Source: Clostridia bacterium
Lineage (GTDB): Bacteria; Bacillota; Clostridia; Acetivibrionales; STF1-152
Reading direction: 5' to 3'
DNA length: 64,000 nucleotides
NCBI GenBank assembly: GCA_028280575.1
Contig: JANQLN010000077.1
Location: 23,669 to 87,668 of the forward strand
Shown here: positions 1-4,949 of the stretch, piece by piece
How the letters are laid out: each line of letters opens with the position of its first letter
Position numbering within the stretch: position 1 is the stretch's first letter
Made by a program: the position numbers and the translations under genes
Notes under the pieces: generated by a model
What the model was told of the DNA's origin: nothing
Databases searched by the model: none
Seen by the model: the letters and a program-made list of their open reading frames with translations, nothing else

Positions 1-448
1 CGGTAAGTGCCCCATCTCCAATTATAGATATAACAGAGTGGACCTCATTTTTAATATCCCTTGCCCTGGCCATTCCCAGTGCGGCTGAAATTGACGTACT
101 GCTGTGCCCCGTATTAAAACAATCATGACAGCTTTCATTGGTTTTGGGAAATCCCGACATCCCATCCAACTGCCTGAGACTGCAAAAATGATCCTTTCGG
201 CCGGTTATAATTTTATGTACATATGATTGATGACCCACATCCCACACAATCTTATCCCTGGGTGAATCAAAAACCCTGTGCAGAGCCAGTGACAATTCTA
301 CTACACCAAGGTTTGAAGCCAGATGTCCCCCTGTTTTTGATACATTATCTACTAAAAATTGCCTGACCTCATTTGAAAGTTGCTCAAGCTCATTATAACC
401 AAGCTTTTTCAGGTCCTCAGGACTGTTGATTGAACATAATAAATCCAA
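1..448 (-). CDS. dxs: 1-deoxy-D-xylulose-5-phosphate synthase, N-terminal part (runs off window start)
   Basis: Minus-strand translation from a TTG start gives [85 protein letters not shown]..., the typical DXS N-terminus. Confidence 0.93.
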
Positions 449-465
449 ATTTAGCCTCTCTCCTC

Positions 466-1053
466 CTACTTTTTCACATTATTTATTTTCCCAAGAAAAA
501 ACTCAAGTATTACACTTACCTTATAAATAATATAATTACTGTTTTTCAATGCAAATGATTTGCCTAACGCTTTCCCGCCTACTGTCAGCGAAGCAACCGC
601 ACCGCTCATAAGCAGGCCGAAAAGAACCGAGTCCGTAACGGTATTCATGCTTGCCACCTTTGTTACGATCAAAGCGCTTGCAGTTCCACTTATAACACCA
701 CATATATCGCCAACAACATCATTTGAAAAATTGGCTACCCTGTCTGCGTTCCTGATAAGAATTATGGATTGTTTCGCGCCATAACATTTTTTTGAAGCCA
801 TAGCATGAAAAGGGGTTTCTTCCGCCGCCGCAACAGCAATACCTATCATATCAAAAACAATACCTACGATTACTATAATGAGCACGACAATTATTGATAT
901 GATATAATTCACATTATCAAATATCGTTTTGGAAAGAAATAATAGTGCTGCGGATAGAATAAAAGAAACAATTGTAATAAAAACTACCCACATTTTATTA
1001 TCATTTTTTGATTTATATGAGTTTTGCCTGAATTTTATATTATTACCTTTCAA
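466..1053 (-). CDS. oapA: OapA-like integral membrane protein (OLE RNA-associated protein)
   Basis: 195-aa multi-TM protein between the OLE-like RNA and dxs, the position expected for OapA; contains the polar segment [17 protein letters not shown] between TM helices. Confidence 0.75.
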
Positions 1054-1207
1054 GATTTCCTCCAGGCTTATATTTACTTACAGATTATTTACCTTTATAT
1101 AATGCTGTATTTTAAGCCTTACTCTATTATCCACCAGTATAAACCGTTTGTCAATCAACTATAACAGCGTTTTGCATCAAAACACACAAAAACCGCCGTT
1201 TTAACTA

Positions 1208-1254
1208 ACTATATGTAACGTCATAATTCTTGGAATTATGACGTTACATATAGT
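1208..1254. repeat. Perfect 22-bp inverted repeat with 3-nt loop
   Basis: ACTATATGTAACGTCATAATTC-ttg-GAATTATGACGTTACATATAGT. Confidence 0.9.
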
Positions 1255-1271
1255 ACTTTGGTTTTCCAACT

Positions 1272-1903
1272 CTTTTTTAATATTAAGCGGTGGCAGTATA
1301 TTGAGTAAATTTTGCGGCTTAGGTCAGGGCGGATTTCCCCGAATTGTACTGAGATGTCGCCAAATCAGCGGTTTCCCTTTAAACAATCCGTCCATATGTT
1401 CCCATATTGGCAGCCTGATTACCACTTAGTCCACACTTCAATCCTCAATATACTTCAATCCGAACAGTCTAGGAGTTTTCCTCTACAGAGTGTCCTATTC
1501 CTAGCCTCTTTTGCAGTTAAGGTTTCAAACAGCAATAATATGCTTTTATCGGCCAATAAAACCATACCTGATCCGTTATCCACACGAAACCACTTCAAGG
1601 CAGGCTACGCTGTCCACAGCTTTTGTATACCGCAAAACAGGTTTAATCCCTTCTCGTGGTCATGCCACATTAAAAAAACTGGCTTTCTCCACAAGCAAGG
1701 GTCTCCACGGTAAAGGGGTCTACGCCTGCATGCCATTGCAGATCGCCCCTAAACCTTAACTCCCAGCATCAGCCCACAACTGGGCGTTGCAAGCCGACAC
1801 AAGGAACTTCATCGATGTGCCCTTTTACGGATTTTTAGGCCCGTCTTTGGAATAGGCATATCTGACTAGAATACTGCACCACCATTCTCTTAATACTCAA
1901 TCC
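1272..1903 (-). ncRNA. ole: OLE RNA (ornate large extremophilic RNA); boundaries approximate
   Basis: About 630 nt without a convincing minus-strand ORF between ispA and the oapA-like gene upstream of dxs; 5' and 3' ends can pair (AGUAUUAAG with CUUAAUAUU; GGUGGUGCAGUAU with AUACUGCCACC). Genomic context matches the described OLE locus. Confidence 0.85.
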
Positions 1904-2138: not shown

Positions 2139-3038
2139 TTAATTGTTTCTATTTGCAAGGTATTTTGCAATTCCAATGAGAAATTCAGACTTTGTGCCAA
2201 ATATGGACAGTGAGTCAATGGCATTATTGGTAATTTCAAAAAGCATTTTTTTTGATTCTTCTGCTCCAAAAATCGTAACATACGTTGATTTACCGAGTTC
2301 TGCATCACTTCCCTGCGGTTTTCCCATAACTTCCAGGCTTGACTCAACATCCATTATATCATCCTTAATTTGAAAGGCCAATCCTATATTATCGGCATAA
2401 TCCCCAAGGGATTTTATCTGGTCCTGTGTAGCATCGCAAAGTATTGCAGGGGCTATGACAGATGCTCTTATCAAGGCACCTGTTTTACATTTATGCATGT
2501 ATTTTAAAGCATGAGGAGATAACTTTTTTCCTTCAGATTCAATATCTATTACCTGACCGGCAATCATTCCTTTTACTCCTGAAGACTGGGCGATTAATTG
2601 CATTGCATTTACTTTCTTTTTATAATCTTCCCTTGTTTGGGCAGATGATAACGTATATTTAAGCATACTCTCAAAAGCATGGTTTAAAAGCCCGTCACCT
2701 GCAAGAACAGCAACGGCATCTCCAAATACCTTGTGGTTGGTAGCCTTACCACGCCTAAAATCATCATTATCCATAGCGGGAAGGTCGTCATGAATCAGGG
2801 AATATGTATGTATAAGCTCAACAGCACATGCATATGGCAAAACAGGTCCAGGGGGGGAATCAAACAATTCCGCAACCGCTAAACCTAAAACAGGCCGGAG
2901 CCTTTTTCCTCCGGCTAAAATGCTATACCTCATTGCACTATATATTGTTTTTTCAAGCCCTTCGTTTTCTTGTATCTCATTATCCATGTAACTGTTTGCT
3001 AAATCTGCCAGTGATTGATATTTTTCTTTAAACTCCAT
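2139..3038 (-). CDS. ispA: Polyprenyl synthetase / farnesyl diphosphate synthase
   Basis: AGGKRLRPVL, HDDLPAMDNDDFRRGK and FQIKDDIMD motifs. Confidence 0.95.
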   Translation of the reverse strand: MEFKEKYQSLADLANSYMDNEIQENEGLEKTIYSAMRYSILAGGKRLRPVLGLAVAELFDSPPGPVLPYACAVELIHTYSLIHDDLPAMDNDDFRRGKATNHKVFGDAVAVLAGDGLLNHAFESMLKYTLSSAQTREDYKKKVNAMQLIAQSSGVKGMIAGQVIDIESEGKKLSPHALKYMHKCKTGALIRASVIAPAILCDATQDQIKSLGDYADNIGLAFQIKDDIMDVESSLEVMGKPQGSDAELGKSTYVTIFGAEESKKMLFEITNNAIDSLSIFGTKSEFLIGIAKYLANRNN

Positions 3039-3273
3039 TAATGTCCTCCTGCTCTATAAAGCTCTTTTCAGTTAATTCCCCATTTTCATCTTCAAGCAGT
3101 ATTGTTATTTTTTTCTCTACTTCATCCAACCGCTTAGAACATAGCCTGGACAATTCCATGCCCTTTTGAAACCACTTTATACTCTCGTCAAGCGTCATAT
3201 CCCCATTTTCCATCTTTTCAACTATTTTTTCCAGTTCCTCCATGGTTTTTTCAAAGTCTATTTTTGAAGACAT
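3028..3273 (-). CDS. xseB: Exodeoxyribonuclease VII small subunit
   Basis: FEKTMEELEKIVEKMENGDMTLDESIKWFQKGMEL; overlaps xseA and ispA. Confidence 0.95.
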   Translation of the reverse strand: MSSKIDFEKTMEELEKIVEKMENGDMTLDESIKWFQKGMELSRLCSKRLDEVEKKITILLEDENGELTEKSFIEQEDINGV

Positions 3274-4495
3274 CCTTATCCTCCTTTATTTCCTCAATCC
3301 TACAGCTCATTTCACCATCTGATACAGATACGGAAACAGCATCGCCTTCACTTATTTGTGACACTGATTTTATAACATCTTTACTCTTCGGATGTTTTAC
3401 AATACCATATCCTCTGGACAAAATATTCAAAGGATTTGTTGAATTCAAACTGTTGACTAGAATGGCAAAATCATTCTTGTTTTTTTCTATTATCCCTTTT
3501 GCTTCCTTTTTCAATGTTTTCATTAGTAAATCCAGTCCCATTCTTGCCTGGTATACCTTGTTATATGGCTGTCTGAAAACCATACTGCCGCTAAGTCTTT
3601 TGAGCTGTTCCTTTTTTAGTGTAACCACTCTTACCAAAGAGGATTTCAACCTTTTATCAATACCGTTTATTCTTCCTGCCAGCTGCAGCTTTTCCGGAAC
3701 AGTAAGCTCGGCTGCAGCAGAAGGAGTAGGCGCCCTCACATCCGCTACAAAGTCCGCTATTGTAAAATCAGTTTCATGTCCCACAGCAGATATAACAGGT
3801 ATTTTCGAATCATATATGCTTATAGCTACAATTTCTTCATTGAATGCCCAAAGCTCCTCAAGGGAGCCGCCGCCTCTTGCTACAATTATTATATCTCCAA
3901 GCCCATGCTCATTAATATCATTAATTGCATTTGATATCTGGTGGGCCGCACGTTCTCCCTGCACCGCTACAGGATAAAGTCTTAATTTGACATTGGGAAA
4001 CCTCCTGGCAAGCACATTAATTATGTCCCTTATCACTGAACCCGTAGACGAAGTTACAACACATATGGCAGAAGGTATAAGGGGCAGCTTCTTTTTATGG
4101 GCTTCATCAAACAATCCTTTCTCACCAAGTTTTACCTTAAGCTGTTCAAATGCTTTATGTAAACTTCCAATACCTTCGGGCTCCAATTCCTGAACATATA
4201 ATTGGTATTGTCCGTCCCTCTCATATATTGAAATATAACCATATGCAACCACACTCATACCATTTTCTGGCCGGAAATTAAGATATTGATTTGAACTTTT
4301 GAACATGACACATCTTATCAATGAACTTTTGTCCTTTAATGTAAAATACATGTGCCCTGAATAATGATTTTTATAATTCGATATTTCTCCCTTTACACGA
4401 ACATCCGAGAGAATAAAGTCACGAGACAGGACAGACTTCAGATATTTACTTATTTCACTAACCGTCAGTATCTGTCTCATAATTTTTATTGGCAT
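3251..4495 (-). CDS. xseA: Exodeoxyribonuclease VII large subunit
   Basis: VSEISKYLKSVLSRDFILSDVRVKGEISNYK...RGGGSLEELWAFNEE. Confidence 0.96.
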   Translation of the reverse strand: MPIKIMRQILTVSEISKYLKSVLSRDFILSDVRVKGEISNYKNHYSGHMYFTLKDKSSLIRCVMFKSSNQYLNFRPENGMSVVAYGYISIYERDGQYQLYVQELEPEGIGSLHKAFEQLKVKLGEKGLFDEAHKKKLPLIPSAICVVTSSTGSVIRDIINVLARRFPNVKLRLYPVAVQGERAAHQISNAINDINEHGLGDIIIVARGGGSLEELWAFNEEIVAISIYDSKIPVISAVGHETDFTIADFVADVRAPTPSAAAELTVPEKLQLAGRINGIDKRLKSSLVRVVTLKKEQLKRLSGSMVFRQPYNKVYQARMGLDLLMKTLKKEAKGIIEKNKNDFAILVNSLNSTNPLNILSRGYGIVKHPKSKDVIKSVSQISEGDAVSVSVSDGEMSCRIEEIKEDKDVFKNRL

Positions 4496-4949
4496 TTTCG
4501 TCTATTATTGCAGCATTTACCTTACTCAATACTCCATTAATATATGAAGACGACTCCATTGTACTATATTTCTTTGCAAGCTCAACAGCCTCATTTATTG
4601 ATACACTGTTTGGAATATCTTTCTTCCATATCATTTCAAATATTGCCAGTCTTAATATGGATAAATCCACCTTTGATATTCTCTCAATGGTCCAGCCCCT
4701 CAAATATGAATTAATATATCCGTCTATGGATGAAATATATTCATTTATACCGTCAAGCATTGATTCGATGTAACCAGAGTCCAATTTTTCTTCCAATTTA
4801 CTAATAGTTGAAGCTATAATTTCATCCTTGTCCTGTTTATGTATTTCCAACTGGTATAAAAGCTTCATTACCGTTTCTCTTGAAGCTCTTCTTTTCATTG
4901 ACTTTTTCCTCCATCCATTGCCACTTACCTGTAGTTTCCAGGCGGCCAA
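4458..4949 (-). CDS. nusB: Transcription antitermination factor NusB (true start probably the internal MKRRASRETVMKLLYQLE)
   Basis: NusB fold sequence, adjacent to xseA. Confidence 0.9.
   Translation of the reverse strand: MAAWKLQVSGNGWRKKSMKRRASRETVMKLLYQLEIHKQDKDEIIASTISKLEEKLDSGYIESMLDGINEYISSIDGYINSYLRGWTIERISKVDLSILRLAIFEMIWKKDIPNSVSINEAVELAKKYSTMESSSYINGVLSKVNAAIIDENANKNYETDTDG

Follow-up and report, generated by a model that had tools for sequence, protein, structure and literature searches.

A full-length OLE RNA is encoded, with a probability of about 0.98, on the minus strand at 1898..1274, followed at 466-1053 by oapA, and the two would take their places in the known particle scheme of the family. 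OLE, a large, structured and conserved bacterial RNA, belongs to a stress-response particle that is bound to the membrane. The window, i.e., the whole stretch of 64,000 nt that was analysed, comes from a Clostridia bacterium (GTDB Acetivibrionales; STF1-152) and covers positions 23,669-87,668 of the forward strand of contig JANQLN010000077.1 (assembly GCA_028280575.1). The analysis establishes membership in the OLE family, with a match to the full RF01071 model, together with the conserved structure, the gene order, the co-occurrence of OLE with OapA and the presence of the partner proteins. The locus adds a well-preserved member to an already known family, in the customary location and beside the customary partner, and there is nothing unusual in it.

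The Rfam model RF01071 is matched end to end (model positions 1-616, not truncated) with 525.8 bits and an E-value of 4.5e-152. As the gathering cut-off of this family is 50 bits, the match exceeds it by more than 470 bits, which bears out the OLE reading of the initial annotation, for which a search of the minus strand with this model had been named as the check; in that annotation, only details of the end pairing call for correction. OLE is the sole Rfam family exceeding its cut-off across the 64-kb window, the matches to MIR9563 and BYDV being under theirs and regarded as chance, and a single OLE copy was found in the genome.

Gene order and the interval between ole and oapA

A non-coding stretch of about 630 nt between ispA and a membrane protein, in the order xseA-xseB-ispA-RNA-membrane protein-dxs, had been claimed beforehand. 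The stretch is genuine: the 625-nt OLE lies within a gap of 1085 nt, measured from the ispA stop (2139) to the oapA start (1053), and the open reading frames and family matches (Table 1) agree with both the membrane protein and the order. On the minus strand, the genes run asp23, asp23-like, nusB, xseA, xseB, ispA, ole, oapA and dxs, with tlyA, nadK and argR outside the window (these three names, and the identity of nadK, were assigned from sequence and position). OLE gene clusters of this kind, including yqhY (Asp23 family), have been published (PMC12265935) and, as judged from sequence, the order here is that of the published cluster, asp23-nusB-xseA-xseB-ispA-ole-oapA-dxs-tlyA-nadK-argR. 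The neighbours expected of an OLE RNA, namely oapA and the isoprenoid/nusB/xse cluster, adjoin it.

Table 1. Features at the OLE locus, with positions counted from the first letter of the window
Feature	Position	Strand	Basis
dxs start, leaves window	1..446	-	open frame; the continuing contig ORF has PF13292, PF02779 and PF02780 (DXP synthase domains)
oapA, encoding a membrane protein of 195 aa, with TTG as start codon and long hydrophobic helices (AlphaFold model)	466..1053	-	ORF and relatives
Promoter-like TTGACA-17-GATAAT before oapA, weak evidence	1126..1154	-	consensus scan, 11/12 match; site count no higher than in shuffles
ole, gene of the 625-nt OLE RNA (full-length form, P7 and P8 included)	1274..1898	-	RF01071
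P1 3' strand UGCCACC	1289..1295	-	covaries with 1877-1883
P2 3' strand CUAGA	1468..1472	-	pairs with 1866-1870
P3 region 3' strands GAAUAGG, UCUG	1486..1500	-	pairs with 1850-1864
L9 palindromic kissing loop UUGGCCGAU	1548..1556	-	GGCC in all commonest variants
P4a region, palindrome CAUCGAUG, published OapA site region	1809..1821	-	same 13-mer in 52/93 aligned sequences
A-rich loop of L4, GCCUAAAAAUC, A-A contact of the dimer in the literature	1830..1840	-	identical in 73/93 aligned sequences
P3 region 5' strands CAGA then CCUAUUC	1850..1864	-	pairs with 1486-1500, 11 bp in total; covariation
P2 5' strand UCUAG, in region of one published OapA site	1866..1870	-	pairs with 1468-1472; U-A/C-G covariation
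P1 5' strand GGUGGUG	1877..1883	-	covaries with 1289-1295
ispA, farnesyl diphosphate synthase, upstream neighbour	2139..3038	-	NCBIfam NF045485, 348 bits, cut-off 275
xseB	3028..3273	-	TIGR01280 above cut-off
xseA	3251..4495	-	TIGR00237 above cut-off
nusB	4458..4949	-	PF01029

The neighbourhood was compared in 80 loci, which are those of the kept OapA relatives fetched from named genomes. OLE lies directly upstream of OapA in 78 of them, and in the remaining two (L048, L104) the contig breaks off after just 198 and 335 nt on that side; dxs is found downstream in 71 of the 80, and in 44 of them ispA was seen immediately ahead of OLE. The gap between ole and the OapA match has a median of 97 nt among relatives, while ole and oapA are 220 nt apart in the window. 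Within this interval, at 1208-1254, lies an inverted repeat whose two 22-bp arms match perfectly around a 3-nt loop. With up to two mismatches allowed, the genome contains the arm 24 times, and the reversed pattern gave none. The flanks of the other copies resemble a family of small dispersed mobile elements, and the repeat was seen in none of the loci taken from other genomes.

As OLE points in the same direction as oapA and dxs and, in most relatives, sits just upstream of them, it might be read as a long cis-acting 5' leader of these genes and not as a trans-acting RNA. This is very improbable, however, since in relatives anything from 24 to 1206 nt separates OLE from the OapA match, unlike what is seen in a cis switch, and since the OLE RNA of H. 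halodurans undergoes processing, is abundant and works as part of an RNP (PMC11332333, PMC12265935). The separate promoter-like sequence between ole and oapA also speaks, weakly, against a leader.

Helices, contact loops and the P6 strand

Covariation was analysed in 93 aligned OLE sequences, with helices being sought independently of the Rfam structure. The Rfam helices were recovered in this way, together with three elements that are unpaired in the Rfam structure line: P1 (OLE nucleotides 16-22/604-610), P2 (29-33/427-431) and the P3 region (35-38/410-413 and 43-49/399-405). These labels were matched by position to published names, P1, P2 and P3 all being given in PMC12265935; a model in the literature proposes that P3 crosses the membrane. 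The covarying conserved helices that characterise OLE, P1-P3 included, are thus found in this RNA, and the RF01071 model could be extended by these three elements.

A strong duplex between the two ends of OLE is possible (-20.4 kcal/mol over the ends), and both terminal pairings quoted in the initial annotation do occur in the sequence where it had placed them. Their conservation was scored on 85 distinct sequences against 1000 shuffles, which leave relatedness in place. The GGUGG/CCACC part holds, as it corresponds to the covarying helix P1 in the register GGUGGUG/UGCCACC: across its 7 pairs, 120 cells are changed on both sides and 93% are paired, compared with 78% after shuffling, a value equalled by 0 of 1000 shuffles. 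By contrast, its extension CAGUAU/AUACUG was rejected, as it has zero both-side changes, pairing amounts to 58-61% at three of the six positions, and the 3' strand is claimed by a stronger helix. The AUACUG strand overlaps the strongly covarying helix 1454-1444/1305-1295, and AUACU lies within the 3' arm of the latter. The outer AU helix, AGUAUUAAG/CUUAAUAUU (1897-1889 with 1287-1279), was not retained as a conserved element either: with 7 of its 9 pairs tested, it is paired in only 34-53% of relatives and is consequently private to this sequence.

The A-A dimer contact of L4 and the kissing role of L9 are known from PMC12286853, and P4a is known as the region of an OapA site from PMC12265935; all three have their counterparts here (Table 1). 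Other published contacts are also retained, namely GCCCA in L5.1, UGGCAU in L6.1 and UUGGCC in L9. When compared with the descriptions in PMC12286853 and PMC12265935, the RNA thus has the dimer-contact loops L4, L5.1/L6.1 and L9 that are expected of a member of the family. A different situation is found in P6. In H. halodurans, a CCUCCU anti-Shine-Dalgarno mimic has been reported at the place in P6 where bS21 binds, and this binding persists in mutants whose mimic is altered (PMC12054373). This mimic, which is reported for a species and does not define the class, is absent from the P6 3' strand of the window (ACCCCUUUACC, 1707-1719, minus). Even the shorter CCUCC was seen in this strand in 3 of the 93 aligned sequences and was missing in the other 90, in a set that is weighted to Clostridia; within this lineage, the mimic is not a general feature.

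A decayed, functionless OLE gene would be in keeping with a score in the low part of the range of the order (most members reach 530-562 bits) and with the insertion of a repeat between ole and oapA, but the complete coverage of the model, the intact contact loops, the paired P1-P3, the intact oapA and the presence of all partner genes make decay slightly less credible still than a leader. A plus-strand protein-coding region can be dismissed, since its open reading frames at 1238-1429, 1312-1713 and 1511-1759 exist (63, 133 and 82 aa) but have Pfam and NCBIfam matches no better than chance, lie opposite the strand that matches the covariance model, and are open, over the OLE-aligned part, in just 2, 5 and 15 of 92 relatives (median stops 2, 4 and 2). 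These frames had been called probably spurious beforehand, which the 5 of 92 relatives and the median of 4 stops for 1312-1713 confirm, and the coding conservation that would have spoken for a protein did not appear.

OapA and the other components of the particle

The frame at 466-1053 encodes OapA, an identity that is established by its relatives, which adjoin OLE and occur in the same genomes as OLE. A tblastn search with the window protein yielded 522 relatives, with a best identity of 58%, and the OapA of Halobacillus salinus (L108) is 41% identical to it in the alignment. Taken alone, the window protein had no family above cut-off when Pfam and NCBIfam were searched, and Pfam has none of its own for it. 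As is expected of OapA, it is a small multi-helix membrane protein that is encoded right after ole.

A second expected property of OapA is a distant relationship with CNNM (DUF21), and this was observed through relatives and fold matches. Although the window OapA by itself did not reach the CNNM model in the sequence search, 20 of 30 aligned OapA relatives matched it weakly (E up to 0.01, best 2.7e-6). Additionally, the top six PDB matches of its AlphaFold model (mean pLDDT 81.5) were all CNNM/CorB/CorC transmembrane domains, at modest values (best E 5.2e-3, TM up to 0.54); the PDB sequence search with OapA gave no match. The similarity to CNNM of both relatives and fold agrees with the published relation between OapA and MpfA (PMC11332333).

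In the order, with its 59 genomes, OLE and OapA co-occur strictly: 53 genomes have both and the other 6 have neither, and the chance of such an identical pick would be 2e-8 if relatedness is ignored. Five genomes of the same order (G030, G032, G039, G051 and G057) were seen to be without OLE and without OapA. As G030 is a single 6.9-Mb contig that lacks both, and its genus-mate G031 has both, a joint loss of OLE and OapA within this genus is suggested.

The other known partners are encoded elsewhere in the genome. The OapB gene was found by its position between map and infA (L139 3657-3938, minus) and was then confirmed against the PDB, where its best match is 7k9b, OLE-associated protein B (E 4.7e-11); the KOW domain (PF00467), tried as a path to OapB, led no further than rplX, NusG and a fragment resembling NusG. 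OapC/YbxF is encoded between rpoC and rpsL (L123 1492-1740) and matches YbxF in the PDB (4lck, E 3.9e-18), and bS21 is also encoded (85.9 bits). Genes for every known part of the particle are, thus, present.

When the window's genome was searched for a CNNM/MpfA protein, none was found. A published anticorrelation between MpfA and OLE was not seen inside this order, where full CNNM proteins occur in 34 of the 53 genomes with OLE and in 3 of the 6 without it. With all known partners present and MpfA not found, the genome offers a modest test case for the proposed replacement of MpfA by OLE-OapA.

Proposed working of the particle and comparison with known systems

According to work on H. halodurans and two clostridial cryo-EM structures, the RNA forms dimers, associates with OapA at the membrane and takes up OapB, OapC and bS21, and the particle is required when cold, alcohol, Mg2+ or the carbon supply puts the cell under stress (PMC12265935, PMC9723947, PMC12054373, PMC12286853). 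If the same scheme applies here, ole and oapA would be expressed as one transcript or as adjacent transcripts within the isoprenoid/exonuclease VII/nusB cluster, and OLE would adopt the conserved multi-helix fold that P1 closes. To judge from the literature, the RNA probably dimerises through contacts of L4, L5.1/L6.1 and L9, and OapA may bind near P2 and P4a, holding it at the membrane. OapB, OapC and bS21 would bind P13, the k-turn and P6, respectively. By analogy with Halalkalibacterium halodurans, the particle may help the cell to cope with cold, alcohol, too much Mg2+ and carbon sources of poor quality, and OapA would probably move or sense divalent ions. A bolder proposal, and a rather doubtful one, is that OLE-OapA is the only CNNM-type divalent-ion device of this genome, and that the repeat and a later promoter-like site uncoupled oapA from the transcription of ole.

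Among known systems, the closest is the full-length type of OLE RNA described by Fernando and Breaker in 2024 (PMC11332333), with which this locus shares the whole model, P7/P8, the dimer loops, the P4a palindrome, the GGCC loop of L9 and the adjacent oapA. It differs from this type in a P6 without the CCUCCU mimic and in a 220-nt gap before oapA that contains a dispersed 22-bp inverted repeat. With OapA, the membrane partner of OLE, the protein encoded here has in common the size of 195 aa, the place directly after ole, the membrane helices and the co-occurrence, and nothing notable differs. The likeness to the MpfA/CorC/CNNM ion transporters consists of the weak CNNM-domain match in OapA relatives and of best fold matches that are CNNM, whereas OapA, at 195 aa, has no room for the CBS or CorC domains.
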